Shown here: positions 1 to 27,275 of the stretch, in pieces
How the letters are laid out: every line of letters starts with the position of its first letter
Numbering within the stretch: the stretch's first letter is position 1
From: Candidatus Endomicrobiellum incisitermitis
Lineage (GTDB): Bacteria > Elusimicrobiota > Endomicrobiia > Endomicrobiales > Endomicrobiaceae
Assembly: GCA_031275795.1 (NCBI GenBank)
Contig: JAISOG010000014.1
Span: 1 to 55,643, forward strand
Reading direction: 5' to 3'
Length of the DNA stretch: 55,643 bases
The notes under the pieces: generated by a model
Database searches by the model: none
Told to the model about the DNA's origin: nothing
The model's input: the letters and a program-made list of their open reading frames with translations, nothing else
Program-made: the position numbers and the translations under genes

Positions 1-3000
1 AAAAGCCAACACTGCTCTTGCATAATTTTCAGACGTATCTAACTCCTTATTTATATTTTCTTTTAGCTTTAATCCTATAACATGTATACCATTCACCTCT
101 CTTACATATACATCATACATCATTTCATGTCCATCAACACTAAATTCTGTGTTTACCGGCACACGGTAATTCTCAACATTAACTCCCTGAGTCATATGTT
201 CTACTAAAGCTGCAGAATATCCTCCATCTTTTAGTACTTGCGCTTGAATTAATTCACTAGAACCAGCACCTATCTGTCCTCCAACTGCTATTAATCTTGG
301 AGATTTTTTAACATCTGCATTATTAAACATTCTAGGTTCTTGGATATAAGCTGGGGCAACTAAATCTATTACCTGATCTTCTATTTCTCTATAATAGAGT
401 CTGCTTTGCATTTGAGCTATATTAAACGCTTCCTGCCTTCCCACTTTTGCTGCTATGGCAACTAATGCTGTGTTCCCCACTACAGTAGCTACTGCGTCTT
501 CATAATTTACTTGCAAACTTGTAAGTTCTGGATGAAGCTTTGCCCAATCGTAAATATCACCTATAGATACTATAAATTCCTCTAGCGCACTTATACTATG
601 TACCATTTTACTAAACTGATTTTGATTCATAGCATAATCTCTATGTCTTAACTCATGTTTTACAAATACTTCTAACAAATCTTTATTTTTAATATTCCCT
701 TGTTGATCAAAAAATATTGCTCTAAGCATTTTATAGTTTACATGTATTTTACCGTCATTAGGGTTAAATGACATCACCACACCAGGAGTATTGTCTTCAC
801 TAATAGACACATTCTTACCAAATGCATCTTTTACATCAAAAGGCAAGCTGTTAGTTATCATGTCAAGAACTGTAAAATCATCAATATCCATATAATAGTT
901 TAAACTTGTTACAGCCCCTTGAGCTATTTTTATTTGTTCAGTTTGATAATTTTCAAATTCGCTCATATTCAACATAAACTTAGACATTACCGCAAGTGGA
1001 AGTTGGGCCAATTTATCTGGCGCTGTAATTCTAGCAGTATCTATCGCTAAAGTACTTGCTATTTGTGCAGCCTGCAAGGCTACTTCAGAAGCAGTCTCTT
1101 GGGATTTTTGTTTTGTTTCTATTCTTTGCCATTTAGGTCTTATTGTTATAGGTTTTTCACCTACATTTTTATATTGCAAATCGTCCTTTTTTATATCAAA
1201 CCCATTTATGGCTTCTTCTTTATTAATAGTTATTAACTTACCTCCAATGACTATTTCAAAACCATTAAATTCAAAACCGTCAACATGTGGCATCCATTTT
1301 TTACTACCCCAAAAACCCATCGAATTAAAGAATCCTCTTTGCACAAGTCCAGGGAAATGAAAATCTTCGCCAAACTTAATAGGAAAATCTTTTGATGTTA
1401 AATCGTCTGTTACCTTCCTTGCAATACCTGTTTGTACTTGTAACGGAATCGTTTTTCCTATACTTTTTTCAGCTTTTTCTTCTTCTACTCTCCTTTCTTG
1501 AGCTGCTTTTTGTTCTGCTAACGCTTTTTCCTGAGCAGTTTTTTCTTGCTCTTCTCTAATTTTTCTTTCTTGCTCTTCTCTTCTTGCTTTTGCTTCTTCT
1601 ACTGACTTTTGAAATTCTTGTTCCTTCCTTACATCTTCTTGTCTTATTTTTTCTTTAACTTCTTCTTTAACTTCTTCCTGCTGTTTTGCAAAGTCTTGTT
1701 CAGAAATCCATTGCATTGTAATTTCTAAAGGGCCCATTGCATAAGAACTATCTATATTAAAAGCGTCCATCGTGCCATCTGGATTAGCATCAAAATTCCA
1801 AGTCTTGAGAATTTCATTTTTTCTATTTTTAGCTTCTACCTTAACTCCGACAAACTTATACCCAGGACGTTGCGGAGTCCAATATTTACTCATTCCCAAC
1901 CAAGAGTTTGTAAAGCCAGGGAACGTATATCCCTTAGGATCTGACTTAGCATAACCGCTGGGCAAACTGGACGGTAAATTATCTATATTATCTATTTCTC
2001 CTTCTTTAACTCCAGTTAAAAACCTTATTGGATGGCTGGTTAAAGAATCTCTAAGATCTAAATCATTTTCTTGTGTCCATAAGTTTGCATCTCTTAATTG
2101 CCCATCTTCTTCCCAATGAGGTGTCAAAACTGAAATATTTTTTGCATCTTCTGCATTTATATTATTAGTAAATCTTTTTGTTGGGTCTATATCTGAAGTC
2201 CAATATAAAGACCCTTCTTTATATCCTAAAGGTGTTTTTAGGTCCCTGCCAATATTAACCAGGTCAATAGTTCCATCTTTTTCTCGATTAACAATCCTAA
2301 AATCATTAGGACTCTCTCCAGTCTGAATTTTTGCTTTCCCAACCTCACATAATTTTTTCCAACGAGGAATATACATTGTATCTTGAGTTGCTGTAACTTC
2401 ACTGTTTGCAATGGGAGTTGATAGGTCTGTATCTGAAACCCAATATAAACTGTCTGGATCACAATCTTTAGGAGCTTGCAATTGTTCAGAAAGTTTTTTT
2501 AAATTAACAGTAGCACCTCCAAGAGCATTAGCAACAACTTGTGCTTCTCTTTGAGTTGAAGTCTCGCCCTCACTTCTATTCTTCCAATTGCCAGAACCAA
2601 TTGTAATCTTTACCTGCGGCAAAGGTTTCCAATGTGGAGTAAACGAACCAGGCTTATCAACCATAACGCTCTCATTTCTACCAAACGTCCGTTCTGGAAA
2701 TAAATCACTCGTCCAGTACAAAGTACCATAATCATACCCTGCAGGAGGAGTAAGACTTGCATAAACTCCAAGATCTACAACACCATTAGATGCATCTGCT
2801 TCTAAAGGGTTTTTTGAACTACTACCTGTATTAATTGATATATTGGGTTTCCAGCGAACTCTTATGGTCACTCTTCCATTTACCCTATTAGCAGGAACAA
2901 CAAAATCATCATTTGCTTGTGCTGCAGTAATTATAGTTGTAATATCTGAATTTTCACTTGTAATTTCGTACCCATCGAACTTAAAGCCTTCCCTAACAGG

Positions 3001-6000
3001 GATCTCATAAGAAGACACCACTTGTGTCATATTGTCATAAACATTAGTCGTATAAGTTACAACAGCATTTTGCACTCTTCGTGCTGCATTTGTAACGCTA
3101 GTATAAATATAACTCTTACGATTTTGGATTGCTTCAGTTGCCCATTGCTTTCCAAATACATATGCACCTTTAGTAATAAGCTTCATAGTCTGAACAACTA
3201 TAGGATCCGGTTGAAATATAGCATTGTACAACACTTTAGGTGCACTTAGAATTCCTTGGCCTACTTGCTTCAATATCTGAATTGGGGAAACTATAGTCTT
3301 CAGCACACTTGGAATGCTTTGGTATACTTGCTTTAATGTATCAATTGGGTGAACTATAGCTTTCCACACACTTGAAATTCCTTCGACTACTTGCTGCTTT
3401 ATCTGACTCCATTCGACATCTCCTACAGCTAATGCTATAGAAGTCCAAGCTAATGCTGCCCATTTTTTGTCTTCCAAAGCACCAATTATGTTTTTTATCC
3501 TTTTAGCATTAGAATTATCCTCGCTGGCAAAATTTTCAAGCAAAACATTTCTTAAACTTTGGTCTAGTCTATTTAAATTATAATTATTAGTAAAAAAGAA
3601 TACCACTGTCCCGACAAGGAATCCAAGAGAAGCTAATAGAATTATAAAACTTATGCCAAGCCATATAGGCGCTATAAGAAATGCACCAAATGCACCTATA
3701 GAAACAACCAGACCTATAGCTACATTCAATTTAAATTTCCAACTGCCACTTTTAAAAAGATCTGTTATAACATTAACTAACAATTTAAATGCTAAGCTTG
3801 TTTTATATTTTACAATCAAAAAAACCACTCCTACTACAACTAAAATTGTAAAAACAAGACTCGCAGCAATGACAAACCACAAAGACGTCAAAGCAATTCC
3901 AAACCCAAAAGCTAAAAAGCCAAGTGCAACTATGGCAGTAATAGCAAAATACGTGATGACCTTTACTGCAGTAAAAGCTTTTGAAGTACTTACTTTAGAA
4001 TTTAATGTGCCAAGTATAAAATCTAAGACCTCTAAATAATAAGCATATTTTTGTCTCTCTTTTTCTGTAGATGCCTTATCTCTTACTGTTGTAAAATATC
4101 CTTTAGCAACAGGACCTAGCAAAGTAACGGCAAAGATTGCTCCTGCTACAACAAGAGCTACTATAAAAAATAATCCAAGCAAACCAGGTCCAGAAAACAA
4201 GCCAAAGAGCACAATTACGCTAACCATAATAAGTCCACTAAAAACTAACCTTACACGATCTTGCCAACTTAAATTTTTATAAGCGTTTTTAATTATTGTT
4301 AGTTTACTTACAGGTGTTGGTGAGACTATAAAATTATATATCACTTTAAATATCCTAGCTATACCTTTGGCTATTAACGAAAAAATATTTGAGCTGGGCT
4401 TTACGCTTTGAGTTTCATAATCTGTTATATTATGAAACTCTTCAGAATAGGTAAAAGTAACAGGCTCTGTTATAGGAGCACTCAATCTTTTTCCGTCGCT
4501 TCTAGACCAGTGAGGAACTTTCTCTTTTGTACTCGTGGTTTTGATCTTTTCATTAAGATCTTCAGACACATAGTACAAGCCCGACTCTACTGCCTCCTCC
4601 TTTGAGGTGTTTGCAAATTTATCCACAAATGTAACTTTTGGATTACGCAAAAAACGTATATTTAATTTACCAACAACATCTTGAGCCGGTACTGTAACAT
4701 CACCAATACTATTTATGTCCTTTACATCAACTTTCATAATGTCTTCACCTTTAACTGAAACAACATATCCTGTAACTTCCCATTTCTCTGCAGTTAAATC
4801 TGTTATGTTTTTTCTGACCAAGTTCTTATCAAGAACATAAGGTTGTCCAAAAACAGCAGGTTTAACTTTAAGATTATCTGCCACATTGCTTTCTATACTT
4901 GCGTTAGCAAATTCAACCTCATATTGTTCACCTTCTTCTTTCTGGTCCCATTGAGCTACAAAATTAATATCTCCTGTTACATCGTGAGCATTTATATCAA
5001 AGCCCTTCACGACGTCCATTCTGCTAACATTAATAGTGCGACCATCATTAGTTGTATACGTGTAACCTTTAAACAAGTACCCTGGCTTTGTTGGCAACTC
5101 TTCTATTGATGTTGCATTCATTTTATAGAGTTGCCCATCTGATAAAACGTCCTTAGCAACTTGAGGTATATTTGCAGATGCACCATTTGCTATAAAATTA
5201 ATGCTATAAAGTGCGGGTGTAAAAGTATACTCTATATCGAGTGCACCGTTGATGGGAGTTGTCCCAAACTGAAAATTCTCTACCACTTCACCATTCATTT
5301 TAACTATACGTTCTACAGTCCCAAACCTACCATCTGCTAACTCTACTCTCCCCTCTGCAATAAGAGGAGCATTTAAAGCTACACTGTCATCAATTTCTGA
5401 TGGGAGTTCCGAAGGAGCAAATATTCCCATAGGTAAGCTCCATGTTATTTTTTGAGTCTTAATACCAGTAACTTTTCCTACAACTGCATTGCCCAAACGT
5501 ATAATATCATTAAGCTTCCCTAAACCTGCTATACGAATATTTTGTCCAGTAACTGCTGCTTTATTAACATTTATAATTGGGTTTCCGGTGTCGCCAACAA
5601 ATACTACATCACTACTTTCTGCATCCCACAAAGCTTGAAGTTTTAAATCCCCTGTAACATCAGACGAAGGTATGTCAAAACCATTTAAAACCTCTTGCTC
5701 GGTAATAGTCTTAATTTCCAATTCTGAATTTACATATCTGTAACCATTAAATTTATAGCCTGTTCTTTGAGGAACAGATGCAACACCATCAAAATGAACG
5801 GTCTCTCCACTTCTTATACTTTGTTGCATTGGCGTCGCATTAGCATCATTTGTTGCAAAAGATAGAGTGTATGTATCTGGCGTAAAAGTATATGTAACTT
5901 CAACGTCCCCAATATCTTTTGCATCAAACTTTGTTGTTCCAAACTCAAAATTAGGGACTTCAAGCCCATTCCTTGTAACTTTATAAGAAAGAGTCCCTCT

Positions 6001-9000
6001 TCTACCGTCGGCTAGCTGTACATGACCAGTTTGTATATTTGGAGCATCTATAAAGCCTTGCTCGTTTACTTTTTCTACTAAAATATCTCCTAGTGCTAAA
6101 CCTTCCGGCAAGTTCCAAACAACAGACACTCCTCTAAACTCTCTCCAACTATCTTGCAACTTTGCGCTAAACCATCTAAAAACATTTCTAAAGGATACTA
6201 TAAATTCTTCTAACCCAGGAAAAATTCTATGAATAAATCTTCTCAAACCGCTTGTTGATTTTGCGTATTCTAAATGGTGCAGTTTGTGCTCTACAACAAC
6301 TCTAAGCATTGTAGGATTATTATTAAGTAATCCCATTACAATATATGGAGAAAAAAGTATTCTGCCTGTATCTGTAGTTTTCATAACCACACTATTATCA
6401 ATGGTCATAGCACTATTTAGAGCATTTATAATAGCGTCTTTAGTTTCAATATCATCTTGCCAATTTGTGCCAGATACCATATTTAAATAATCGTTTGCTA
6501 AATTTACATTATCAAAAACTGCTTGTACAAACTTAATTGCAGTTTCTTTAGGCAATGACCTTACTAATTTAGCAAACACTAATCTGCTTTTCTGAAGAGA
6601 TAATAGTTTAGAGTTTCCTAATTCTTTTATAGTTCTTTTTTGTTTGCTTTCATATATTGAAGACATTATAGACATAGTGCCTATAATAGCAAGAACAGAT
6701 GCTCCTATAGCTGCTGCAATAACAGCTCCTAAACCTGTAATAATACTCAAAGAAAGTAACACCACAAGAGCTACAAAACCGGCAGTATTAAAAAACGCTA
6801 ATATTCCTGCCCCAATAGAGGTAAATCTCGCGCTGGCAACATCGCTAACTTCGCTAAGAGCTACGCTAGTACTCTTGTCCACATCTGCTTCTGCTTTCTC
6901 TTTTGCTGCTTTTTCTTTGTCATTTATAAATTTTTCTTCGGCCTCATACAACTCTTTATCTTTATCGGAAAGGCTAGATTTGTCCTCGTGTTTATGTTTT
7001 GCTACAAGATACTCGTACAAATCCTGTTGCCCTTTTGCATCTCTACCAAAAACTTTTTCTTCCTCTTCTATGTTTTTAAAACCAACCCCTTCCTCTTTTA
7101 TAAATTGGTGTAGGAATTCTCCTCTCTCAAAATTTGGATCAATTTCTACCATCGTCCTTGACACACCTAATATCACTTCTTTTGCTACTTCAGTTTGTTG
7201 TCCAACTCCAAATAATGCTTGAGTACCTGCAGCTAACACAATAGATGCTTTCAGCAATGCTCTAAAATTAAACTGTTTCCCCATTGCACTTAATGCTGTC
7301 TTGATTGAATTCATCAACCCTCTTGCTGCAGAATGCTCTTCCTGCGATGACACTTCCCTTGTTAGTGCCTGTATTTTCTGTTTAACTGCAAATACTTTAA
7401 ATCCCTTCGATTCGCTCATCGATAATTCTGATATGTTTTTTTGAAATAAAAATGAATTAAATACCCCTGCAACTGAATCTGCAAACTGCTCATGAAACAT
7501 AGCTCTTGCCTTTGTACCAGAGTCAAATCCTAAACTCTGCAAATATCTATGTCCTAATTCATGAGCTATTACTCTATAATAAACCTCATATGGATCTTTG
7601 CCAAAATTCTCAATTCCCTTCAAGCTTCTTACAAAATTCAAATCGCTATCAGCGTTAAAATTATTGCCTGCAAGAAAATTAGCTTGTAACGCAATTTGGT
7701 ACACTCTCTGCTCATATTTTCTTATTTTATCTGCCATATCTTTAAATCCTGCGTGTTCCACTTCTTGTATTACTTCCCCACTTGCTACTAAATTAATGCC
7801 TATTATCAACACTCTTAAATCAAAATACGATTCCGTATGTTTTAAACTTTTTGCTTCCAACATTTCCTTAACACCATCTTTTAAAGTCATTGCTACTGTG
7901 TCTACATTAACACCATCAACATCTTGTACTCCTCTAGATTTTAGCTGTGCAAAAGCATAAAGCCTATAACGCACCTCTTGAGTTTTATCTTGCATTATAT
8001 TTAACAAAGCTTTATTATCTTGCGATATCCTAAGAATTTTAAAATATCCTGCATCATATGGAAATTGTGCTTCTATTAACTCTACCGGGGCTGTAAATGC
8101 TATTAATTCATCTAGATTTGAAATAGAACCTTTATAAACATATTTCGAAGCTAAATCTCTTAGAAAATAATCTCCTATAAAATCAACTTCATTCATTAAT
8201 ACTTCATTTCTTTGTCTAATATATCTAAGCGCCTGTTCTCTATCTGAAATATTTAATTTACTCAATATTTCTTCTAAAGATCTGCGAGATTCTAGCACCT
8301 CTTTAGAATATTCCATATCTGATTGAGATATACCATCTGTTACACTCATTTCTAGCTGTAACATTGTACTTAACATATTTTTTATATTATTATGGTCATC
8401 AGTATTTCCCTGTGATTCATATACAGAAGCTAATTTATTTAATGTATTTGCCAAAGTAACCACATTTTGACTTATAGTTGTCGGCGGCATATTTTTTACA
8501 TCAGTTATATCAAATGCCATTTTACTAAGTAATGCTGAAACTATTAAATTATCTGCATCCACATTTGCTGTATCTGATAATATCTTTGCTACAGTAAATA
8601 TAATAGTCCTTAAACCTGCTTTTCTTTTATTTAGATCTTTTTTTGATATACTCCGAGTATTAAAAATATCATCAAATTCTTTTACAGGACGAGACGTAAT
8701 AGACGCCATAAGTTCTTTAATTTCTTGTAACTTATTTACATCAAATAAATTATTATCTATTAATAGTTCATTTAACTTGTTGTAGATATTAGAATTTCTG
8801 GGGTTAACCTTATGAAAGAGAGAAACATCATCTATTGAAGCATCTACAGAATCTATCATTAATTGTCTAAACATAGTCTGTATTTGTTCATAACTGCTAC
8901 TCTTATCAACAGAAAATCTCAGTTTTGTTAAAGTAATTTCCTCTTCAGTAACTACAATTAACTTTTGTTTTAAATCTTTTTGATCTTTAAATGATAATGG

Positions 9001-15000: not shown

Positions 15001-18000
15001 ATACGATTCTGTATGTTTTAAATTTTTTGCTTCCAGCATTTCCTTAACACCATCTTTTAAAGTCATTGCTACTGTGTCTACATTAACACCATCAACATCT
15101 TGTACTCCTCTAGATTTTAACTGCGCAAAAGCGTAAAGCCTGTAACGCAACTCTTGAGTTTCATCTTGCAAATAATCCAACAACTTTTTATTATCGTTTG
15201 CTACACGAACGATCTCATAATATTTGATTTCTTCTTGGAGATTTTCTCTTATAAATTCTGAACTTGCAATAAGTCCAATTGCATCTCCTTTAGAAACAAG
15301 TAAGTTTCTGCTAATCTCATCTTCCTTCTGCTTAATAATATAACTAGCAATTCGATCTAATTCTTCTTGTTTTAATATCTTTTTTGCTATCTTTAAAAAA
15401 TCTGGATCTCTAAAGTACAATGGATCCTTAAGATTAATAAATTCTACGAGCCCTTTTCCAAAGTATAAGTTTGTGTCTAGCAAACTATTTAAAAATTCAA
15501 CATTTTTGTCGAGATGTACACTAATAGCCCCCATTGTAAAAGATGCACTCCACCCTATCGAAGATAATATCCCTTTTAAATAAGGAGAATCGCTCCAAAT
15601 GCCATGAAGTATTTCAAAAAATTTTACGTTTCGATTTAATTCTTTTGCTATACGATCATCTAATATTGTTTTTGCAAAATCAGGGTCAAACTTTTTGGCT
15701 GCTAAATAATATGGTGTCGGCTGCGCATCAAAAAAAGATTCTTTATTCTGTTTTAAAGAAGCAGCAATCTTTTGTTTCTCTTCTGGCTTTAACATAGTGT
15801 CTATATTATCTACAAATAAGCTATTTATAAAAAGACTTGGAAATTTTACATTGCAAAATTCTACAATCTCTTTACCAAAATAAAAATCAGTATTTAACAC
15901 ACTTTTTAAAAATTTAATGCTATCTTCATCAAAAACTTCAGTATTTAATTTGCTTGCAAATTCCCACAAACCCAACAATCTAGATGTAGTAGGGGGAACT
16001 TGTCCCAAAATACCTTCTTTTATAGTCCCAGTACTAAACTGTTTTGCTGCCGTTTTAAATATTTCTTTTTCTAATTTCAACTTAATATCTTCAAATTTTT
16101 CAACATCGTTTTTACCTGTAACAGATCTTATAAAGTCTTGCAATTCTTGTGAATTTAAAACATTATTTTCCAATAAAAAATTTATCATGTGCCCTGTTTG
16201 CATAGCTTCAGGATACATAGTACTTATCAGTTCCTCGCTTAACAATTGAAAGGATTGCGGATTCTGCAAGTTTACCGAACTAAATATATCATCAAACTTA
16301 GGCACTGAAAGTTTAGTTTTTGATATCTGTCTAGCTAAATTCCATGAGAAATCATATTCTTTAAGAAGATAGTCTCTTATTGCTTGCGAGCCTTTTTCAT
16401 AATCATTATCATAAGTCATTCTTTGCTTTGTTATTTCAAAAAGAATTTTATCTTGAGTTGCAGTGTCTATTTTCTCTCTTGTTAACCTCTCTTTTAAATC
16501 ATCAGTATCTTTTAGCTCTTTGTTAGATAATTGTTGAATTTGTTCTACTGGTTTTTCTTCCAACTCTATTTCCTGAGCTGTTTCTTTAGGTTCTTTTTGA
16601 GATGCTTGTTCTTCTTGGGTTATAGTTTGTTCTTCTGTTGTTTGCGGCGTTGATTGCGATAAGTCTTGAGTTTGTTGAGTTTCTCCTTGTGACTCTGTTT
16701 GCATAGTAACATCTGTTAAGTTACTTAAGACAGATGTAGCCTCAGTAACGCGCTCTTGTGGGGTGTATGCTGGAGGTTGCTCTATTTGCGAAATTGTTTG
16801 CTCATAATCACTTTGAGCTAGCTGTAAAGATTTTAAAGTATTAAGATTTGCTAAAGTAATTCTTGGCGAGGAGCCTTTCCCATTTGACAAAACTTCTTGA
16901 AATTTTGAAATAGTATCATTAACAGTATCAACTAAATCAATCCTTGCAAATTCTTTTGCTGCACTGCCAGCAGGCAACCAATAACGTAATCTCTCTAAAA
17001 TTATTGCAGTTTGTTGTCTACTTGTAACAGCTGTTTCCAAATCTGTTGTAAGCGTTTGGTATGCTGAGCCCAAATCATTTAAAACTGTACCAAATCTGGA
17101 AAATGTTAAAGCTAGATATAAGTTAGAAAGATCTCCTTCTTTTAAAGCAAAATTTATAGTTCTATCATCTTTATTCTTTAAAAAACTTTCAAAACTTGCT
17201 GCTTTAAAATTAGCTTGCAATCTTAACAAACCGTCAACAGCAGCAGCTAATATGGATAGACCTTTCTTAATATCTATAGCATTTGCAGACTTCTGCTGAA
17301 TCAAAATATCCAAAGGTATGATTACCATAGCATCATACAAGTCTAGGTTTAAGTTAGCGTCAGAATTATTTGCCAAAACCATAGGCCTACACCCTAAGGC
17401 AATATCTTTTAATTCTTCAAAATCATCTAAACTAAAATCCCCCTTATCAATAACAGTTTGCATAATGTTTCTTATAGTACTTACCATCCGCCTTGCACTT
17501 GCAGACACATTCTCTCCTGCAAAGATGGCGTCATCTAATTTACCTTGCGAATCGATCAAATTCTTTAATAATTGCTTATCATTTTTAGTCTCTCTTGTTT
17601 GTGTTTCTAAATTTTCTATTTCTACAGGTAAGTTCATCAACAACCTTTCTTGTTCTGCTTGAGTTAATTGTGGTTGTTGCTGTTCAAACAATCGGTCTTG
17701 AGGATGCTCAATATTAGAAACATCTACACCCATGTCCTTTAAAATATTAAAAAATGCAGTACGAAAACCTCTAAGCCTTGACCCATTTTCAAAAGCAACA
17801 GACCCATTATTTATAGGATAATCTAAAACCGATAAAGCATACTTACCATAATTTGCAATTAAAGATTGAGCTCTTTGTTTTTCAGGAGTGTCTTGTGTAG
17901 AAAAATTATTTAATTCTGCTAAAATAAGCATATATGTCTTTATGTCAGAAGTAATACCCTCTTGATCATTAGACGCCTGTAGAATTAATGCTTCTCCTTT

Positions 18001-21000
18001 TAATATTTCACCCTCTCTATATTGCATAGTAAGAGGAAACAAATCTACAAGAGCTCTTTGCAAGTTTACATCATTATATATGCGTCTACTTTTAACTAAA
18101 GTCGTAAGCAAACTACTTAAAGCTCCCAAAGCTTCTTGTTTACTCGTTATAGTTTCAAGAAATCTAATATTTGAGTCAATAATTCCTGAATCATAATATT
18201 GTTTAAGAAAATTAGCTATTTTTTCTCTTGTGTCATTATTTTGTAGTTGCTGCCAACTGTTTTCATTTATAAAAATATCTTTTACAGTGTTCACAAATGC
18301 TGCTGTTTGTTGATTGTATTGCGATTGATCTACAACGCTAAATGAATATTCCAATAGAGTATTACTTATGTTTTTATCTAAAGTTGCCAAACTATCTTTA
18401 TCTGCAGAAGTGATATTTTGCCCTTTTTGAGCAACAGATACACTTAATAAATCTATATCCTTTTGTTCTTTACTGATAATTTGCTCAAGCAAAGACTCTT
18501 TAGCATTAGATAAAGCCATTGTTAAATTGCCTAAATTAAAAGACAAATTATCAATTAAACTGTTAAATAACACATCTTTTGTCTGTTGCGTTTTAAATTC
18601 TTGGGGCAATATACTTTCAATTGACGTATATAACTTTTCAGTAAGCTTTTGCCTTACCAAGCTTTCAAACAAACCTACAAATGAACTAACTGCTTGACTC
18701 TTAACAACATCTTTTATGTCGTTTTCATTGATGTCTCCAGAAATTAACATGTTTTGTAATGATATAAGCTGCGGAGTTAAGAATCCTCTTGAAAATGCTT
18801 CAGATGGGGTTTGTTCGTTTCTTATTATTTCTGTTACTACATTATTGTTTACTTTCTGAATTAAAGTTTCTTTTAATTCTTTAAATTTCGCAGCAGAAGT
18901 ATCTCCAACTGCACTTCTTGCTATATTTTTTAATTCTTCAAAAGTATCATACGAATCGTATCCCAACAACTCTATTGCTCTTGCTACAACAACAGCGTCT
19001 GGATTACCTGTGTTTATAAGTTGTTTTACAAGCTCTAGTGGTTGGCTTGAAGATAACATATCTTCAAAATTCAAGCTTTGAGTATTAACATTTAAATTAA
19101 ATTTTACACCTGCAAGAACTTTAGCATCTTCTTTACTAAATCCCAAATTTGTAAAAACTTCTTCTGTAAGATTTACATTTGGGTTTAACATACAAAAAGT
19201 CTGTATTTTCTGAGATATTTCTCTACTGTCACGTCCTAGGAGAATTGTCAACGACTGCTCTATATCAGTATATGAATTTAAATTTATTTCTCTCAGTTGT
19301 TTTAATCGCGTAGTCCCAAATAAATTTCTAAAAAAGTTACCGATACCAGTGAACAAATCCCCTACAGAAACTATAAGTTCTTCCAGCCAAGGTCTTGAAT
19401 GAACAAACTTCCCAAAAAATCCTGTAGATGTTCTAAAAGACTCATGCCTTAACTCATGTTTAACAAAAACTTCTAACATTGACTGATTTACTATGTTTTT
19501 GCCAGACTCGTCAAAAAACTTTGACCTAATCATTGCATAATTTATTTTTATACCTGCGTTGCCAGTTTCCATGACAGCGCCAACATCAGTCAAATTTAAA
19601 TCTTGAAGTCTTTTAGCCAAATCACTAGCATATCCGTACAATAAACTATCAACAGACTCAAAAGGCACTTGCAAAGCTGCTGCAGCAAACTCTTTTGCTA
19701 CATCTTGAGGCAATGATTGAAGCAATTTCTTAAACATATAAACATCTGTCATACCTTCTGGCACATCACTAGGAGTAGATCCTTCTTTTGCTAAAAAAGA
19801 ATCTTGGTATAGCTCATATCCCATAAAAGACATATTCCCTATAAATAAAAGACCAAAAAGTATAAGTGGAGCTAAAAACCAAAGAAATCCTGTTACTGCT
19901 GCAAGACCTATTGCCACACTTGCCCCAGCTACAATTGCTGCAGATACAGCACTTATAGCTATAAAACTTTTAACTGAAGACCATATGCTGCTTCTAGACT
20001 TTTGGTTACCTTGGACTTGAGCTTCTTCTTGCGTTTGAGCAGATGCGCTAACAGGTTTAACTTCAAATCCTGAATCTTTATAATTGTATGCGGTCGTTTG
20101 ACCGTTTCTTGAAATTTTTAACTCTAAAGTATCTAAATTGTTTAAACTACCTGTTAATTGAGCTGTCTCACCTTGTGCTAAAACCGTTTGTAAAGCTTCG
20201 TTTATTGCTTCAATTGTGTACCCTTTTTGAGTTAGCACTTCTGTGAGCATAACAGGTTTTAACCCTTCTTGAACTTGTGTTAAATTTAATGTAGCAAGCG
20301 CTTGAAAAAGTATTTTACTTTGCTCTTTTGCTAACGCATAATACACGTCTTCAGCTAACTTTACTTCTCCGCTTACATTAGGCGTTATTACCACGTATGA
20401 TATACCTTGCTCTTTAAGTAATTCACAAATGCCTTGTGTGTGGAATCCTCCTGTTATTACCATAGATACATTTTTTGCTTCTTTTAAAGATTGTATTACT
20501 TTATCTGCTTCAGACAGATCTTGCGTAAACTCTTTAGATATTTTGCTTGAATCTTTTATAATGTCTATATTTTCAATAAAATAATTATTTCTATCTAAAT
20601 TTATTTTATAGAACGTTTCTGCTGTATTCTCATATTTACTTAAACTTTTTAACTTTTGGTTGTCTATATATTTGGTCCATAATCTTTTAAATTTCTTTAT
20701 ATTATTTTCATAATAATTATAGTCATCAGAGGTTATTTTACTAGATAGATAGTCCTTAAGATATGGCATAAATCCAGACAGAAAAGCTATTTCTTTTTCT
20801 CCAGCGTCATAGGCAAACGCTATATTTAGCTCTTCTTTTAATCTCTGCTCTTCTTTTAACATTTCCATCGGATTTGTTTTTTCGCTTAACTCTATATAAT
20901 TAAAGAACTTGTTAAGTTCAGGAAAATTTACTGACAAATCTATATTATTTTTCCTAGACACCCTAACCAGATATGTATACAATCTATCAATATCACTAAA

Positions 21001-21957
21001 ATCTGAGGTTGAATCCAATATCATCTTATAGGCACCATAAGGCAACAATTCTTTTAACTTTAATATCAACAATTGCAATTCTTTTGTAGATTTCTCATAA
21101 TCTATTTGCCTGCCTAAACTTAAAAGTTCTATATATAAACTTATATTTTCATACTTGTTTAAATCAACACCTAAACTGTCAGCATACTTGTTTAACAAAA
21201 TAAAATATTTTTTAGCTTCTAGATCGCCAGATATGTATCTTTTTGACAATTCTTCTATTTTATTTTGCTTTCTATTAAAATACAAAGATTTAAGATACCT
21301 AACATTACTTTCCATGCTATTAAAAACTTTTGTAATTTCACCCTGAGCATATAAAATATCCCCGAACCTTTTTAAATTGTTTAAATAAGGCTCTTGACTT
21401 TCTAACCCTTTAATTATCGTCGGCTTATTTGACATAGCAGAATAGTATTCTGCACCAGTTAAAGCACCTGTTGCAAAAATTGAATTTATTGTTTTCTCTT
21501 TTTTATCTTTGTCTTTTATATTAGCAAGCCAAGAAGTATCTACTTGTCCATATGCACCTTCTAAATATATATTTTGTAATCCAAACTCTTTATCAAAAGT
21601 CGATATAATATTACTTATATTTTTTTGAGCTTCAGGATGTAAATGCAAATCTTGTATATTTATAATAACAGTATCGCTTCCAGCATAATTTGCTGATGTA
21701 ATCTTCCCATACGAATATGGAAGTGTAAAATCATTAAATATCTGTTTAAACTGCTCTGTAGCTTTTATATTTTGTGTTACTTGAGCAATAGACTGACCAT
21801 ACACGAATGTAAGTAATAGACAGTTTATTAATATGATAGAAATTATTTTTACAGGATTTAGCTCATAGTACCACTGTTTACAACTTAAAATAAAGTTTAA
21901 AAACCTTTTAAACGATACACTTAAACCATTTAATGTACACTCAAGAAAACAGTGCAT
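1..21957 (-). CDS. giant modular surface/secreted protein with repeated HExxH modules (C-terminus outside window)
   Basis: Exactly 7319 codons are open from the ATG at 21957 to base 1; there is no stop, so the protein is longer. The start has a strong Shine-Dalgarno (GGAGGA, 6-7 nt upstream). Architecture read from the translation: hydrophobic segment at residues 36-54, an unusually late signal or anchor; a domain with QDLHLHPE at 102-109, IYLEGAYG near 130-137 and GGFHTQG at 503-509, resembling TraB/EreA-type proteins; membrane segments near 656-710, 3823-3880, 4207-4236, 5050-5103 and several at 5877-6123; HELRH at 834-838 and 7101-7105; HELGH at 2407-2411, 3535-3539 and 4799-4803; a degenerate HKLHH at 5224-5228; InlB-like repeats between about 5350-5740 and 6320-6690; Glu/Gln/Thr-rich linkers near 1726-1820 and 2640-2700; a charged coiled coil near 6752-6833. 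Function unknown; an envelope protein with protease-like modules is inferred. The N-terminal resemblance is from motifs only. Confidence 0.93.
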   Translation of the reverse strand, partial: MHCFLECTLNGLSVSFKRFLNFILSCKQWYYELNPVKIISIILINCLLLTFVYGQSIAQVTQNIKATEQFKQIFNDFTLPYSYGKITSANYAGSDTVIINIQDLHLHPEAQKNISNIISTFDKEFGLQNIYLEGAYGQVDTSWLANIKDKDKKEKTINSIFATGALTGAEYYSAMSNKPTIIKGLESQEPYLNNLKRFGDILYAQGEITKVFNSMESNVRYLKSLYFNRKQNKIEELSKRYISGDLEAKKYFILLNKYADSLGVDLNKYENISLYIELLSLGRQIDYEKSTKELQLLILKLKELLPYGAYKMILDSTSDFSDIDRLYTYLVRVSRKNNIDLSVNFPELNKFFNYIELSEKTNPMEMLKEEQRLKEELNIAFAYDAGEKEIAFLSGFMPYLKDYLSSKITSDDYNYYENNIKKFKRLWTKYIDNQKLKSLSKYENTAETFYKINLDRNNYFIENIDIIKDSSKISKEFTQDLSEADKVIQSLKEAKNVSMVITGGFHTQGICELLKEQGISYVVITPNVSGEVKLAEDVYYALAKEQSKILFQALATLNLTQVQEGLKPVMLTEVLTQKGYTIEAINEALQTVLAQGETAQLTGSLNNLDTLELKISRNGQTTAYNYKDSGFEVKPVSASAQTQEEAQVQGNQKSRSSIWSSVKSFIAISAVSAAIVAGASVAIGLAAVTGFLWFLAPLILFGLLFIGNMSFMGYELYQDSFLAKEGSTPSDVPEGMTDVYMFKKLLQSLPQDVAKEFAAAALQVPFESVDSLLYGYASDLAKRLQDLNLTDVGAVMETGNAGIKINYAMIRSKFFDESGKNIVNQSMLEVFVKHELRHESFRTSTGFFGKFVHSRPWLEELIVSVGDLFTGIGNFFRNLFGTTRLKQLREINLNSYTDIEQSLTILLGRDSREISQKIQTFCMLNPNVNLTEEVFTNLGFSKEDAKVLAGVKFNLNVNTQSLNFEDMLSSSQPLELVKQLINTGNPDAVVVARAIELLGYDSYDTFEELKNIARSAVGDTSAAKFKELKETLIQKVNNNVVTEIIRNEQTPSEAFSRGFLTPQLISLQNMLISGDINENDIKDVVKSQAVSSFVGLFESLVRQKLTEKLYTSIESILPQEFKTQQTKDVLFNSLIDNLSFNLGNLTMALSNAKESLLEQIISKEQKDIDLLSVSVAQKGQNITSADKDSLATLDKNISNTLLEYSFSVVDQSQYNQQTAAFVNTVKDIFINENSWQQLQNNDTREKIANFLKQYYDSGIIDSNIRFLETITSKQEALGALSSLLTTLVKSRRIYNDVNLQRALVDLFPLTMQYREGEILKGEALILQASNDQEGITSDIKTYMLILAELNNFSTQDTPEKQRAQSLIANYGKYALSVLDYPINNGSVAFENGSRLRGFRTAFFNILKDMGVDVSNIEHPQDRLFEQQQPQLTQAEQERLLMNLPVEIENLETQTRETKNDKQLLKNLIDSQGKLDDAIFAGENVSASARRMVSTIRNIMQTVIDKGDFSLDDFEELKDIALGCRPMVLANNSDANLNLDLYDAMVIIPLDILIQQKSANAIDIKKGLSILAAAVDGLLRLQANFKAASFESFLKNKDDRTINFALKEGDLSNLYLALTFSRFGTVLNDLGSAYQTLTTDLETAVTSRQQTAIILERLRYWLPAGSAAKEFARIDLVDTVNDTISKFQEVLSNGKGSSPRITLANLNTLKSLQLAQSDYEQTISQIEQPPAYTPQERVTEATSVLSNLTDVTMQTESQGETQQTQDLSQSTPQTTEEQTITQEEQASQKEPKETAQEIELEEKPVEQIQQLSNKELKDTDDLKERLTREKIDTATQDKILFEITKQRMTYDNDYEKGSQAIRDYLLKEYDFSWNLARQISKTKLSVPKFDDIFSSVNLQNPQSFQLLSEELISTMYPEAMQTGHMINFLLENNVLNSQELQDFIRSVTGKNDVEKFEDIKLKLEKEIFKTAAKQFSTGTIKEGILGQVPPTTSRLLGLWEFASKLNTEVFDEDSIKFLKSVLNTDFYFGKEIVEFCNVKFPSLFINSLFVDNIDTMLKPEEKQKIAASLKQNKESFFDAQPTPYYLAAKKFDPDFAKTILDDRIAKELNRNVKFFEILHGIWSDSPYLKGILSSIGWSASFTMGAISVHLDKNVEFLNSLLDTNLYFGKGLVEFINLKDPLYFRDPDFLKIAKKILKQEELDRIASYIIKQKEDEISRNLLVSKGDAIGLIASSEFIRENLQEEIKYYEIVRVANDNKKLLDYLQDETQELRYRLYAFAQLKSRGVQDVDGVNVDTVAMTLKDGVKEMLEAKNLKHTESYFDLRALITGINLIASEKVIQEVEQAGFKDMADKIREDEQSMYQQILQADFIEGESFNADSSLTFVRNLEGIEYFGKDLYDAYYTVIAHELGHRYLQSLGFDSGTKARAMFHEQFADSVAGVFNSLLFQKDISELSIITSESKGFKVFAIKQTEEAGSQEVQTAKREASSQEEHDAARGLMNSIKAVLGAMGKQFNFRALLKTSIVLAIAGTQALFGVGQQTEVAKEVILGVSKAMVEVDPNFERGEFLYQFIKEEGVGFKNIEEEEKVFGKDAKGQQDLYEYLVAKHKNEKEPALIANDLYDNELRFIEKYNSEHIQERETVVEETQQKATEEKETKEEGVQPSIETAQIEEQQPKEERPIEGITQEEQSPGTTGPTTSVQTIAQQPSALGVLRKLKELKVIDDASVNQIESSIQIGADLVEEIVYQKIVQVEYEKIVASLPRSLNAETVKREIAKRISTYLRYSKATLNDLSSVANAEFAAVIAEQLVTDIGNNEVDNAEKQLQQLSQIYGLLSEILSKDEIDNIIKGSFPTVGAALVANNLTKLANGREWILRVAASLARFSVTYVDVFKDALNLKINTRNVLASSLNGLSNTDGLLENEYQTISDQLVTLYQQENILITERIALATSKEELNRLFNSLNTLEQNIRKSFFISETESLAEAVGRLSNYDNKQDLQKAIIITNLIIEKNDVANEQDTRDTLTGVENREKEMDVLARSLETLLKSKVLSVIQKQDIKQKLSIAQQEQINLINTEWIVNTQDVDVKEINKSRKNLEYLMRSVVVTSMDEVVFNINNVADLYIINKLNDFFTIDQNNFSNPAKIQELKANLFELIDKTNAEQVDHFNYFFGEIDSNPDMVDKKIALQIIVASIATNLASTANGNIEKLKFSAALSKMVVAITNEKGPSSAYTSEVIVDLASTLNKLVNALPRDSIDQKNIKNILATILQQEFSVTYGLSKLDSLLASQAVEENSKKLLKSSTSLEKMLRELNVSDKAQAIRYIRQRNMILKNNPNFVSSRYMSKEWYKETSLNLDELIAFTAPVELIEEQFPYDAGYFKILKVSQDNEALLNIMQDINKDLRYRLYAFAQLKSRGINEVNGVNVDNYIQTLTTNIKEMLQAKTLRISASYFDLRTLTIAINIVASSETIKVVEQAGISADNIKANEQKQYSNILRANFLQRLTGESINADSGMNFMRFERGDDGYSSEHEYFYEVIAHELGHTYLNALGFNSGILNTPEKYIKTQDRAMVHELTADLVSSVFNSFLLQTNVLNGGIIKGIRKVFNVFTRDFGILKGERGLREGTTIVQEGHGAARGLLNSVIVALEKMGVAINSETVFRPLLGAAISVAMTVSPTLFGEGQQNVIAKEIVISIANSIAESNPAFDKGELLYQFIQLEGASFNNFEEEEKVFGTDAKGKEALARYIIAKHTKPAGFLTKFGSLYRAEKRFLKNYQNEMPNFNSVGSNANIAAQTLQPILQPSLTNSANAVEMSKPLTAANTVRSSTNVGKVVSAIVAGVFLVGASVLGGLLIFGVIAATPIVMTALIAVAIVGMIATIIFLYLQFRSPALAKKERMLVEFPEQIENLERAVKANPDNKQAFKDLNKAQAKLDDMIFADQNVSKDTQQIVNYLRNIIQEVIDKGTVDQKVLDQVKNFIAQCKPMILASDSNLDNSSFEMMFEFALEALQGDLDNGNIKTLVGGVSLLLDSVLIKLSKVKNLSQTGINKFLQTENNPDINPPLTQSDISNLYIALTLSRLVSVLDKEASAGATLITDLETSIGTKSKTAVLLERLRYWLEAGSLSKEFARVDLVNAFKGYLNRYQEVLDATVGQSSTRTNQELLESDRNLVLAQSDYAQQETIVQTTPALNLEVPAAQQPSFVNQVATQTEGSGHSVLWYIGISIVTIGIYWLVRLFSYLSGPTVAPVGPTLAPVGPTVVDKLVEAANKLEAFAKDSTTKRVELLEAADSAIVELELANPTNAKEIELKRQACNKIAVALNKLMIPLSFKDQKDLKQKLIVVTEEEITLTKLRFSVDKSSSYEQIQTMFRQLMIDSVDASIDDVSLFHKVNPRNSNIYNKLNELLIDNNLFDVNKLQEIKELMASITSRPVKEFDDIFNTRSISKKDLNKRKAGLRTIIFTVAKILSDTANVDADNLIVSALLSKMAFDITDVKNMPPTTISQNVVTLANTLNKLASVYESQGNTDDHNNIKNMLSTMLQLEMSVTDGISQSDMEYSKEVLESRRSLEEILSKLNISDREQALRYIRQRNEVLMNEVDFIGDYFLRDLASKYVYKGSISNLDELIAFTAPVELIEAQFPYDAGYFKILRISQDNKALLNIMQDKTQEVRYRLYAFAQLKSRGVQDVDGVNVDTVAMTLKDGVKEMLEAKSLKHTESYFDLRVLIIGINLVASGEVIQEVEHAGFKDMADKIRKYEQRVYQIALQANFLAGNNFNADSDLNFVRSLKGIENFGKDPYEVYYRVIAHELGHRYLQSLGFDSGTKARAMFHEQFADSVAGVFNSFLFQKNISELSMSESKGFKVFAVKQKIQALTREVSSQEEHSAARGLMNSIKTALSAMGKQFNFRALLKASIVLAAGTQALFGVGQQTEVAKEVILGVSRTMVEIDPNFERGEFLHQFIKEEGVGFKNIEEEEKVFGRDAKGQQDLYEYLVAKHKHEDKSSLSDKDKELYEAEEKFINDKEKAAKEKAEADVDKSTSVALSEVSDVASARFTSIGAGILAFFNTAGFVALVVLLSLSIITGLGAVIAAAIGASVLAIIGTMSIMSSIYESKQKRTIKELGNSKLLSLQKSRLVFAKLVRSLPKETAIKFVQAVFDNVNLANDYLNMVSGTNWQDDIETKDAIINALNSAMTIDNSVVMKTTDTGRILFSPYIVMGLLNNNPTMLRVVVEHKLHHLEYAKSTSGLRRFIHRIFPGLEEFIVSFRNVFRWFSAKLQDSWREFRGVSVVWNLPEGLALGDILVEKVNEQGFIDAPNIQTGHVQLADGRRGTLSYKVTRNGLEVPNFEFGTTKFDAKDIGDVEVTYTFTPDTYTLSFATNDANATPMQQSIRSGETVHFDGVASVPQRTGYKFNGYRYVNSELEIKTITEQEVLNGFDIPSSDVTGDLKLQALWDAESSDVVFVGDTGNPIINVNKAAVTGQNIRIAGLGKLNDIIRLGNAVVGKVTGIKTQKITWSLPMGIFAPSELPSEIDDSVALNAPLIAEGRVELADGRFGTVERIVKMNGEVVENFQFGTTPINGALDIEYTFTPALYSINFIANGASANIPQVAKDVLSDGQLYKMNATSIEELPTKPGYLFKGYTYTTNDGRTINVSRMDVVKGFDINAHDVTGDINFVAQWDQKEEGEQYEVEFANASIESNVADNLKVKPAVFGQPYVLDKNLVRKNITDLTAEKWEVTGYVVSVKGEDIMKVDVKDINSIGDVTVPAQDVVGKLNIRFLRNPKVTFVDKFANTSKEEAVESGLYYVSEDLNEKIKTTSTKEKVPHWSRSDGKRLSAPITEPVTFTYSEEFHNITDYETQSVKPSSNIFSLIAKGIARIFKVIYNFIVSPTPVSKLTIIKNAYKNLSWQDRVRLVFSGLIMVSVIVLFGLFSGPGLLGLFFIVALVVAGAIFAVTLLGPVAKGYFTTVRDKASTEKERQKYAYYLEVLDFILGTLNSKVSTSKAFTAVKVITYFAITAIVALGFLAFGFGIALTSLWFVIAASLVFTILVVVGVVFLIVKYKTSLAFKLLVNVITDLFKSGSWKFKLNVAIGLVVSIGAFGAFLIAPIWLGISFIILLASLGFLVGTVVFFFTNNYNLNRLDQSLRNVLLENFASEDNSNAKRIKNIIGALEDKKWAALAWTSIALAVGDVEWSQIKQQVVEGISSVWKAIVHPIDTLKQVYQSIPSVLKTIVSPIQILKQVGQGILSAPKVLYNAIFQPDPIVVQTMKLITKGAYVFGKQWATEAIQNRKSYIYTSVTNAARRVQNAVVTYTTNVYDNMTQVVSSYEIPVREGFKFDGYEITSENSDITTIITAAQANDDFVVPANRVNGRVTIRVRWKPNISINTGSSSKNPLEADASNGVVDLGVYASLTPPAGYDYGTLYWTSDLFPERTFGRNESVMVDKPGSFTPHWKPLPQVKITIGSGNWKNRSEGETSTQREAQVVANALGGATVNLKKLSEQLQAPKDCDPDSLYWVSDTDLSTPIANSEVTATQDTMYIPRWKKLCEVGKAKIQTGESPNDFRIVNREKDGTIDLVNIGRDLKTPLGYKEGSLYWTSDIDPTKRFTNNINAEDAKNISVLTPHWEEDGQLRDANLWTQENDLDLRDSLTSHPIRFLTGVKEGEIDNIDNLPSSLPSGYAKSDPKGYTFPGFTNSWLGMSKYWTPQRPGYKFVGVKVEAKNRKNEILKTWNFDANPDGTMDAFNIDSSYAMGPLEITMQWISEQDFAKQQEEVKEEVKEKIRQEDVRKEQEFQKSVEEAKARREEQERKIREEQEKTAQEKALAEQKAAQERRVEEEKAEKSIGKTIPLQVQTGIARKVTDDLTSKDFPIKFGEDFHFPGLVQRGFFNSMGFWGSKKWMPHVDGFEFNGFEIVIGGKLITINKEEAINGFDIKKDDLQYKNVGEKPITIRPKWQRIETKQKSQETASEVALQAAQIASTLAIDTARITAPDKLAQLPLAVMSKFMLNMSEFENYQTEQIKIAQGAVTSLNYYMDIDDFTVLDMITNSLPFDVKDAFGKNVSISEDNTPGVVMSFNPNDGKIHVNYKMLRAIFFDQQGNIKNKDLLEVFVKHELRHRDYAMNQNQFSKMVHSISALEEFIVSIGDIYDWAKLHPELTSLQVNYEDAVATVVGNTALVAIAAKVGRQEAFNIAQMQSRLYYREIEDQVIDLVAPAYIQEPRMFNNADVKKSPRLIAVGGQIGAGSSELIQAQVLKDGGYSAALVEHMTQGVNVENYRVPVNTEFSVDGHEMMYDVYVREVNGIHVIGLKLKENINKELDTSENYARAVLAF
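6990..8130 (-). repeat. HELGH module, copy 3 of the giant gene
   Basis: Covers about residues 4610-4990. HELGH is at 4799-4803 and HEQFAD carries Glu 4823, with the same 19-residue spacing as copy 1. Bases 6993-7960 are nearly identical to copy 1, whereas 7981-8130 match copy 2 much better, so this copy reads as a chimera of the other two. The flanking helical region toward the N-terminus (about 4270-4610) is the counterpart of the one before copy 2. Confidence 0.82.
9203..9255 (-). repeat. 18-bp tandem repeat coding for VGPTxAP
   Basis: Almost three in-frame copies of an 18-bp unit (gtaggaccaaccggagca) encode a Pro/Gly linker of the form GPTVAPVGPTLAPVGPTV at about residues 4235-4251. It directly follows a membrane segment (about 4207-4236), so it looks like a flexible spacer between a membrane anchor and the next helical module. 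Confidence 0.9.
10690..11905 (-). repeat. HELGH module, copy 2 of the giant gene
   Basis: Covers about residues 3351-3756. HELGH is at 3535-3539 and is followed by a VHELTAD motif with Glu 3569, which is 29 residues after the second histidine because of a short insertion relative to copies 1 and 3. The module is more diverged at DNA level from copy 1, but the stretch 11770-11920 closely matches 7981-8130 in copy 3. It is preceded in the protein by a helical region (about 3040-3320) that recurs before copy 3. Confidence 0.8.
14138..15240 (-). repeat. HELGH module, copy 1 of the giant gene
   Basis: Covers about residues 2240-2607. The order is a helical segment (KSRGVQDVDGVNVDTV), the HELGH motif at 2407-2411, the HEQFAD motif with Glu 2431, then a tail containing FGVGQQTEVAKEV and EEEEKVFGKDAKGQ. 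The second histidine and Glu 2431 are separated by 19 residues, a spacing compatible with a third zinc ligand in gluzincin peptidases. The DNA of its C-terminal-coding part is nearly identical to copy 3 (for example 14203-14380 against 7061-7230). Confidence 0.85.
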
Positions 21958-21975
21958 AAAGGTCCTCCGTATTAT

Positions 21976-22611
21976 TTAATATTTATTAATATAATTATTA
22001 TAAGTAATCGTAAATAATGGTAAATAAATAATAAAACCAACTTTATCAAAATAAAGTTGGTAGATAGGTATATTTTTATTGATAATTTTTATAAATATAG
22101 GGACTCCTCTTGGAAGAGACAACATCATAATTAAAAAAATTAGTATAAGCTTAAACCCGTAGTTTACTTTAAAAATGTTAAACACTCTAGTTATATTACA
22201 CTTATACTTATAATTTGGATAAGCTTTAAAAATTTTAAATTTAAAACCAATAAAAGAATTTAAAAACATGTCCAAAAACATATCTTTTTGACTAGCATTG
22301 TTTGTTTTACCTTTTTTGATTATACAACCAACAGAGTTGGCAGTATGCACCAAAGTTTTTAAATTATTTTCTATATTTATATTACGTCTTAATATTTTAC
22401 TTGCCAATTTTATTGGGATATTTATAGCACCATAAATTGTGCATAGATGACTTTTAAATTGGAAAATTTCTTTTTTTTGGCAAAGTAAACAAGTATCAAC
22501 ATTTGAAAGGAAAGAGGTAAACAAAATGTTTAATAGCAAAGAAATTGCTATAAAAATAGAAACTCTAGTGTTGTTTGCAATAATACTTTTCATTGTTTTA
22601 ACCCATATCAC
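21976..22611 (-). CDS. hypothetical small membrane protein upstream of the giant gene
   Basis: The open frame is 211 codons from a GTG at 22611; an internal ATG at 22593 (residue 7) is the more natural start, but neither has a good ribosome binding site. Hydrophobic stretches lie near residues 17-35, 150-167 and 188-205, and there is a CLLC pair near residue 42. The family is not recognised. Its stop lies 18 bases before the giant gene's start and the giant gene's Shine-Dalgarno occupies that gap, so the two would be cotranscribed. A TATAAT-like -10 is visible at 22681-22686 on this strand, without a convincing -35. The composition is very A+T-rich, so a chance frame cannot be excluded. Confidence 0.42.
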   Translation of the reverse strand: MIWVKTMKSIIANNTRVSIFIAISLLLNILFTSFLSNVDTCLLCQKKEIFQFKSHLCTIYGAINIPIKLASKILRRNINIENNLKTLVHTANSVGCIIKKGKTNNASQKDMFLDMFLNSFIGFKFKIFKAYPNYKYKCNITRVFNIFKVNYGFKLILIFLIMMLSLPRGVPIFIKIINKNIPIYQLYFDKVGFIIYLPLFTITYNNYINKY

Positions 22612-26243: not shown

Positions 26244-27275
26244 ATGAGATATATTATGAAATTTACCAAATGTGACAGCAAATTTTTTAAGGATATTGCG
26301 GAATTATTGCAGACAGCCCGCAGTAAGGTCTATCGCGTTGTCAATTCAGTTATGGTCAAAACATATTGGGAAATAGGCAAAAAGATCGTTGAGCAAGAAC
26401 AAAACGGTAAAGAAAGAGCCGATTACGGCGAGTATCTAATAGTCAATCTTTCCCGCTATTTAACAGATACTTTCGGGCAAGGTTTTTCAGAAGCCAATAT
26501 TCGCAATATCAGACAATTTTATAAGGTTTTTCCCACCTATACTAGATTCGCTACGCAGTGAGTAGCGAATCTATCTTGGACAAACATTCGTCAAATTATA
26601 AGACTTGATAACGAAACCGAACGCAACTATTACATTAAAGAAGCCTCTGAACAAAATTGGAGCTCTCGCCAACTTGAACGCAATATCAAAAGCGGTTATT
26701 ACAGACGTTTGCTATCATCTAAAAAAGTAAACAAAAAACTTGCTTTGCCATCTTCCCCTAGCACTAAAAATAAAACAGACTTTATAAAAGACCCTTATGT
26801 TTTAGAATTTCTTGATGTCCCGGAAGATTTAGTAGGTAAAGAAACATTACTTGAAAACGCCCTTGTAAGCAACTTGCAAAAATTCTTACTTAAACTTGGC
26901 AAAGGTTTTTCTTTTGTAGCCCGCCAACAACGCATCAGCACTGAAACCGATCACTTTTATGTTGATTTGATATTTTATAATTACCTGCTTAAATGCTTTG
27001 TAATTATTGACTTAAAGACAACAAAACTTAAGCATGCTGACATAGGTCAAATGGATATGTATGTGCGTATGTACGACAAATTAAAAAGAGGCAAAGACGA
27101 TAATCCAACAATAGGTATTATTCTTTGCGCTGATAAGTCAGACACAATAGTTAAATACTCTGTCCTTGAAGAAAGCAAACAACTTTTTGCGTCAAAATAC
27201 AAAACCGTCTTGCCTACGGAAAAAGAACTTGCAAATATGATAGCTAAAGAAAATATAAAATTATTGGAGCGATAA
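26244..27275 (+). pseudogene. DUF1016/YhcG-family PDDEXK nuclease, interrupted by in-frame TGA
   Basis: One frame encodes both halves of a YhcG/DUF1016 protein but is broken by TGA at 26559-26561. The N-terminal part (KTYWEIGKKIVEQEQNGKERADYGEYL, cut here as family signature) ends at FPTYTRFATQ; after the stop the frame resumes VANLSWTNIRQIIRLDNETE and runs to 27275. The C-terminal nuclease core shows DHFYVDLIFYN and FVIIDLKTTKL, the PD-(D/E)XK-like Asp and DxK residues, plus QMDMYV. A 12-bp perfect inverted repeat surrounds the stop. Such proteins are common accessory genes linked to restriction systems. Downstream ATGs (for example 26709) could allow a separate C-terminal fragment. The start may be ATG 26244 or 26256. 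Confidence 0.85.
26543..26573. repeat. 12-bp perfect inverted repeat inside DUF1016 gene
   Basis: TAGATTCGCTAC (26543-26554) and GTAGCGAATCTA (26562-26573) are separated by GCAGTGA, whose last three bases are the premature stop. Relative to other family members the protein has about four extra residues here, so a small palindromic insertion is possible. Confidence 0.85.

Follow-up and report, generated by a model that had tools for sequence, protein, structure and literature searches.

The giant open frame at the start of the window (the whole 55,643-nucleotide stretch of DNA analysed here) belongs to a single real gene, and comparison of its predicted product with relatives identifies it as a member of an order- and phylum-wide family of ‘bookended’ giant proteins, in which a fixed N-terminus and a C-terminal tag enclose a variable centre. 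The middles of these proteins are interchangeable, and the predicted TIM-barrel of the C-terminal region is found within the genus, with sequence relatives in some other genera. The bacterium, a member of the Elusimicrobiota, resembles Endomicrobiellum and lives as an endosymbiont of termite-gut flagellates. Relatives with public names are Endomicrobium/Endomicrobiellum metagenome-assembled genomes (MAGs), the nearest being Endomicrobium sp. Gx481_bin217, which is 97% identical across the N-terminal 600 aa, and the termite-gut flagellate endosymbionts that have been characterized to date make up the genus Endomicrobiellum (PMC11257099). The initial annotation of this DNA was sound on the gene itself, but missed the large order-wide family, the presence of the C-terminus on other contigs and the conserved tag.

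Table 1. The giant gene, the modules of its predicted protein and the candidate pieces of its missing end. Coordinates are those of the window unless a contig is named.
Feature	Coordinates	Strand	Basis
Giant ORF, 7319 codons, 3′ end off contig	1..21957	-	Frame read, orthologs
Shine-Dalgarno GGAGG, six bases ahead of ATG 21957	21964..21968	-	Read directly
Signal-peptide-like hydrophobic segment, aa 32-61, conserved in family	21775..21864	-	Hydropathy, alignment
Module A, aa 63-560, predicted divergent Tiki/ChaN-superfamily domain; invariant QDLH, EG, GGxH	20278..21771	-	
Membrane hairpin, aa 658-714	19816..19986	-	Hydropathy
Module B1, aa 724-895, HELRH...E gluzincin-like peptidase module	19273..19788	-	
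Module C1, aa 1434-1760, recurs as C2	16678..17658	-	Self-comparison
Module D1, aa 2187-2652, AHELGH...HEQFAD, peptidase-like	14002..15399	-	
Module D2, aa 3319-3773, AHELGH...HELTAD	10639..12003	-	
Membrane block, aa 3822-3884	10306..10494	-	Hydropathy
Module C2, aa 3887-4210	9328..10299	-	Self-comparison
Module D3, aa 4590-5036, AHELGH...HEQFAD	6850..8190	-	
Module B2, aa 5110-5290, degenerate motif HKLHH	6088..6630	-	
InlB-type B-repeats, aa 5279-5710 (Pfam Flg_new, best aa 5363-5405)	4828..6123	-	
Three long membrane blocks, aa 5900-6126	3580..4260	-	Hydropathy
Further InlB-type repeats, aa 6282-6622	2092..3114	-	Self-comparison
Module B3, aa 6991-7162, HELRH...E	472..987	-	
Start of conserved C-terminal region, aa 7163-7319; predicted TIM-barrel and tag KSILGAA off contig	1..471	-	
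Missing C-terminus, candidate pieces	G000:C7:3-671 and/or G000:C18:5052-5717		Near-identical C-terminal DNA of two paralogs

The anatomy of the window protein was drawn from self-comparison, hydropathy and Pfam (Table 1). Two kinds of repeated module carry the HExxH motif and downstream glutamate of gluzincin metallopeptidases, without significant similarity to a known peptidase. In module D, HELGH (aa 2407, 3535 and 4799) and the following HE...AD are invariant in all three copies, and a PDB profile search returned no match. In module B, where HELRH stands at aa 834 and 7101 and B2 is degenerate, HExRH and the downstream E never vary among 15 B modules from several genera; the best match in the PDB profile search was aminopeptidase N, aligned at the motif with a non-significant E of 0.27. 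The sole significant Pfam match of the window protein was Flg_new (27.1 bits against a cut-off of 27, E 4.7e-6). Matches to NhaB, PFK and similar families were discarded as noise, as were the coiled-coil hits that were the only yield of a viral fold library, and the phage collection searched gave no match. The membrane blocks, the repeated protease-like modules and the InlB-like repeats of the initial annotation are therefore all present, and its view that the combination belongs to no named family was borne out by Pfam.

Module A, the first of the two bookends, is a divergent Tiki/ChaN-like domain by what appears to be transitive homology to PF04187. We name it in this way, and not as ChaN, because the link is transitive and direct comparison fails: the N-terminus of the window protein has no Pfam match (PF04187 included), a PDB profile search found nothing relevant to module A, and its direct hhalign comparison with ChaN was not significant. 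Its AlphaFold model (pLDDT 86) had no significant PDB structure match, and the Foldseek list, with EreC (6xcs) at rank 2 and the EreA-like 3b55, ChaN (2g5g) and HopBA1 (5t09) also present, gives all of these E values above 0.1. The bridge is provided by giants of other Elusimicrobiota families, which match the family profile A2 at E values of about 1e-18 to 1e-46 (hhalign 3e-47) and also match PF04187, at best with 5e-7; one of them, a giant from another class (G127:C43), exceeds the curated PF04187 cut-off (31.2 against 27.7 bits) and matches profile A2 at 4e-40. As the 11 bridging sequences were picked by PF04187 search, their 11/11 match is not independent. Among 65 module A homologs QDLH, EG, E, R and GGxH are kept, QDLH and GGxH being invariant. 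The TraB/EreA-like N-terminus first proposed for this protein is thus supported at the level of the Tiki superfamily; PF05139 (EreA) itself was found across the phylum in one protein of one genome, outside the giant frames. Module A shares with the superfamily (ChaN PF04187, EreA/EreC and TraB) two histidine motifs, QDLH and GGxH, at the ends of the domain; the bridging homologs match PF04187, and EreC and ChaN stand in the Foldseek list, though without significance. It differs in carrying a large helical insert of about 280 residues, in its fusion to giants, and in that the window sequence itself has no direct significant match. Separately, a tandem cluster of 381-494-codon proteins with weak N-terminal ChaN (PF04187) matches lies at about 6.2-16.1 kb of G134:C19 (genus g37, another Elusimicrobiota family).

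The second bookend is a nine-residue tag with the consensus [AL][VI][RK][AS]IL[SGA]A[AG]-COOH. The order and class provided 61 distinct C-termini of the family, of which 46 end in A[AG] (32 in AA and 14 in AG) and six have nothing resembling the tag. Five of 469 other ORFs at the same loci also end in A[AG], and at least three of these five look like family members missed by the filter. As the members of the family are related to one another, the corresponding Fisher value of 3e-47 makes them look more independent than they are, but upstream of the tag most tails cannot be aligned between genera. In a search of the whole genome that carries the window (G000), the pattern I-L-[small]-A-[AG]-stop had exactly two matches, both of them giant C-termini; at the 30 loci examined, long-frame matches to the pattern all end in the tag consensus, and in the non-carriers G067 and G071 it occurs only in frames of fewer than 10 codons. 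Eight of 12 giants from other classes end in a single Ala, so the full tag is mainly a feature of Endomicrobia.

Just ahead of the tag, the chain of the G004 ortholog is modelled as a TIM-barrel, then a helical bundle and finally a terminal helix, with a pLDDT of 68 for the whole model and about 80 where it is folded. The nearest fold is tryptophan synthase alpha (E 9e-4, with low TM-scores), which we take as a statement about fold only, and we do not claim TIM-barrel homology across the order because the C-terminal profile reaches only some of the tails from other genera. A 1259-aa neighbour of one family member (L089:2363-6139, plus strand) has a signal-like N-terminus and the tail KRLLACA; it is possibly a further member that profile A2 does not match.

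Of the 84 genomes of the order, 49 carry module A. They comprise 14 of the 42 genomes of the genus, in several of which the module is fragmentary or interrupted by stops, 28 of 35 from the family's other genera, most of which have 11 to 24 matches, and all seven from other families. Outside the class, the module is also present in six Elusimicrobiota genomes from other families. There are often at least 17 copies per genome, and the longest member has 12,656 codons. In G037, the listed family frames, some of them cut by contig ends, sum to about 122,000 codons, or roughly 11% of 3.4 Mb. The family was not found in G071 (one contig, 1.6 Mb) or G067 (four contigs, 1.1 Mb). Copies of module A in three genomes of the same genus (G014:C18, G019:C12 and G062:C20) carry several in-frame stops and are pseudogenes, members of a family that is decaying in endosymbionts.

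Between the bookends, giants of the order hold a wide range of domains, including the glycan-related Glucan_synthase (9e-32), GT5 (7e-9), a GH2 TIM domain (3e-7), AMPK1_CBM (4e-11) and LysM (1e-5), as well as HEAT, TPR, GGDEF, HATPase, CofD, radical SAM and cNMP-binding domains. The 1,3-beta-glucan synthase-like domain (PF02364, E 9e-32), here inside a bacterial giant, lies at about bases 705-1970 of L140 (G038:C7). Even within the genus, D modules have been gained and lost between orthologs. Across five orthologs, dN/dS is 0.29-0.46 for the whole frame, 0.08-0.13 for module A, 0.13-0.22 for the C-terminal part and 0.3-0.6 for most of the centre, with one stretch at 0.76. The strong selection that the initial annotation read from the open frame is therefore real as purifying selection over the whole frame, and strong at both ends, but the centre is relaxed and gains and loses modules.

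It could be argued that in this endosymbiont lineage the gene survives largely as a relic of what it did in a free-living ancestor, such as surface or glycan remodelling or attachment, and is heading to loss. Many genomes of the genus are without the family, most other genera hold many copies, the copies in G014, G019 and G062 have internal stops, and the centre is weakly constrained. However, five orthologs in separate assemblies remain open over 5.9-8.3 kaa, with dN/dS clearly below 1 and strongly so at the ends, and genome size does not significantly separate the intact carriers within the genus from the rest (p = 0.09). We regard the relic explanation as unlikely. The loss or decay of the family in many flagellate endosymbionts means that it may mark a trait shed on the move into a protist host. 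The predation-like job once suggested for this protein is improbable, as the genus comprises flagellate endosymbionts in which the giant family decays.

The explanation that we favour, and to which we give about even chances, is an envelope-resident modular scaffold whose tail would be recognized by a tail-specific factor, with CtpA as the foremost candidate. The glycan-related modules of the relatives are in keeping with this view. The giant would be exported by Sec and held in the envelope by its membrane hairpins, where it may bind and process envelope or host-compartment polymers by means of the predicted peptidase modules. More speculatively, the tail might be read in the periplasm by the tail-specific PDZ protease CtpA (family S41), or by a similar reader, which could trim, mature or retire the giant. 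Prc/CtpA-type tail-specific proteases act on nonpolar C-termini (PMC5686067), and the genome of the window has a CtpA of its own, with a PDZ domain, on contig G000:C9. In genomes chosen by hand, an S41 protease was present in 15 of 15 carriers and four of seven non-carriers; because S41 proteases are widespread this discriminates little, and the co-presence weakly favours a periplasmic reader. The cytoplasmic-type domains of some relatives (HATPase, radical SAM, cNMP-binding and CofD) are a poor fit with a purely periplasmic protein. A bolder proposal, which we put forward tentatively and consider rather doubtful, is that the nine-residue tag may be a sorting or processing signal of a new kind that has its own reader. 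It would then define a pathway for the export, assembly or maturation of a whole class of giant envelope proteins in Elusimicrobiota, in a family that amounts to about a tenth of at least one genome.

The same tail could instead be an ssrA-like degron that marks inner-membrane or cytoplasmic giants for ClpXP or FtsH and so keeps the levels of such costly proteins low. The bacterium's own tmRNA tag reads ...GAMPIAA, with the AA end of most giant tails, and the tail ends in a predicted helix. Yet the giants also keep Leu at -4, conserve positions -5 to -9 and accept AG, whereas ssrA tags have a hydrophobic residue at -3; in addition, the giant N-terminus is signal-like. A degron of this type is quite improbable on these grounds. 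The tmRNA gene itself lies at G000:C35:9427-9818 on the minus strand (locus L205), was detected by Rfam at 179 bits and missed by ARAGORN, and its tag seems to be NNDKFVPMQSVKPFMGFGAMPIAA.

A type I secretion signal on an RTX-adhesin-like surface protein has still less in its favour. Extreme C-terminal motifs of four to five residues do mark type I substrates, and the lipase LipB of S. marcescens ends in ELLAA (PMC2642768), so that the giants resemble the large type I adhesins and lipases (LapA-like proteins and LipB) in adhesin-like size and in a short hydrophobic C-terminal motif ending in Ala. Unlike those proteins, they contain no RTX repeats (no GGxGxD repeat in 13 giants) and have a signal-like N-terminal segment and internal membrane hairpins, and no type I adaptor HlyD (TIGR01843) scored above the cut-off in any of 22 genomes. 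We therefore rejected type I secretion as very improbable.

The coding nature of the frame is clear throughout its length. Across the same bases, the other two frames of the minus strand contain 783 and 822 stops, the chance of a 7319-codon open frame at this base composition is about 1e-283, and the G+C content of the three codon positions (0.45/0.33/0.21) is steady over all 7319 codons. No stop interrupts the frame between its ATG and base 1 of the window, which is also base 1 of contig C13, and for this reason the frame's own stop is absent from the contig. Two complete orthologs from the same genus, those of G004 (7837 aa) and G020 (8299 aa), do have stops, and both end in ...NAVKSILGAA; by comparison, the full-length protein is expected to reach about 7.8 kaa. 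In G000, G017 and G023 alike, the contig breaks in the same codon region of the giant. In the genome of the window, contigs C7 and C18 start at the same base of near-identical giant C-termini (223 and 222 codons), and there are two giant N-termini, one in C13 (the window gene) and the other in C21. The break is best explained by a repeat common to two giant genes, as the ends are near-identical and the starts are two in number. Each of the two C-termini may belong to either gene, and about 300 codons of the repeat are missing from the assembly. The near-identity of the C-terminal DNA, seen between G000:C7:3-671 and G000:C18:5052-5717 and again in G017 (C49 and C50), suggests that the C-terminal region was recently duplicated or underwent gene conversion.

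Although the gene runs off the contig within a repeat, an assembly or gene-calling artefact is rejected on present evidence as having a negligible probability, given the same architecture in separate MAGs from different termite-associated species, the two orthologs with proper stops and the codon signal throughout the frame. The single giant gene first read from the window is accordingly confirmed by the uninterrupted frame, its coding composition and the complete orthologs, and the mis-join of modules that had been named as a possible refutation is unlikely because the orthologs stand in separate assemblies.

Other features of the window deserve brief mention. A 211-aa, GTG-started ORF on the minus strand (21976-22611) ends just ahead of the start of the giant and has no Pfam match; its identity is 91-92% in G017 and G023 and 44-63% in G020 and G004, and it may be a small gene or decayed DNA. 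A 188-aa frame for a YhcG_C PDDEXK nuclease (26709-27275, plus strand) is apparently short of the full-length gene. Between an EngA-type GTPase gene and tRNA-Gly/tRNA-Leu there is a tandem duplication (31308-31724) of a 224-bp unit, with 1.9 copies and 95% matches.

The usual description of giant bacterial ORFs is one of poor conservation and obscure function. In the present family, a recognizable N-terminal domain and a tag unite giants of 1-12.6 kaa across the order and beyond, and these shared ends therefore make the giants countable, alignable and testable with short reporters in place of 20-kb constructs. The tag also raises the direct question of who reads the tail. Our literature search found no paper linking Endomicrobia with giant proteins. 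Giant genes are said to be common in Elusimicrobia in the part of PMC12057145 that cites West-Roberts 2023, so this kind of gene is already known; what seems to be new is the two shared ends, and the family and its tail tag are apparently undescribed.

Several known systems share single features with the giants. The InlB-type repeats, just above the Pfam cut-off, recall the surface proteins with InlB B-repeats (Flg_new, PF09479), but Pfam finds neither leucine-rich repeats nor a cell-wall anchor in the window protein, and the B-repeats are just one module type among many. Compared with the C-termini recognized by Prc/CtpA or in ssrA-type systems, the tag of the giants is longer, with nine conserved residues, and is confined to one family. 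A SecA-like helicase domain was reportedly described by West-Roberts et al. in 2023 in giant proteins of the Omnitrophota type. Among our sequences, a SecA P-loop domain was seen in one relative from the order (PF21090, 27.4 bits against a cut-off of 27, E 3e-6) and is absent from the window protein. The closest parallel is with the giant ORFs of Omnitrophota (Seymour et al. 2023, PMC10066038), which come from symbiosis-linked lineages and have frames of more than 20 kb that encode multiple membrane helices but few annotated domains; the window frame likewise exceeds 20 kb and encodes many predicted membrane helices. The family reported here is a defined one, recognized by homology, and its Tiki-like N-terminus, C-terminal tag and many paralogs per genome may set it apart from the Omnitrophota giants.
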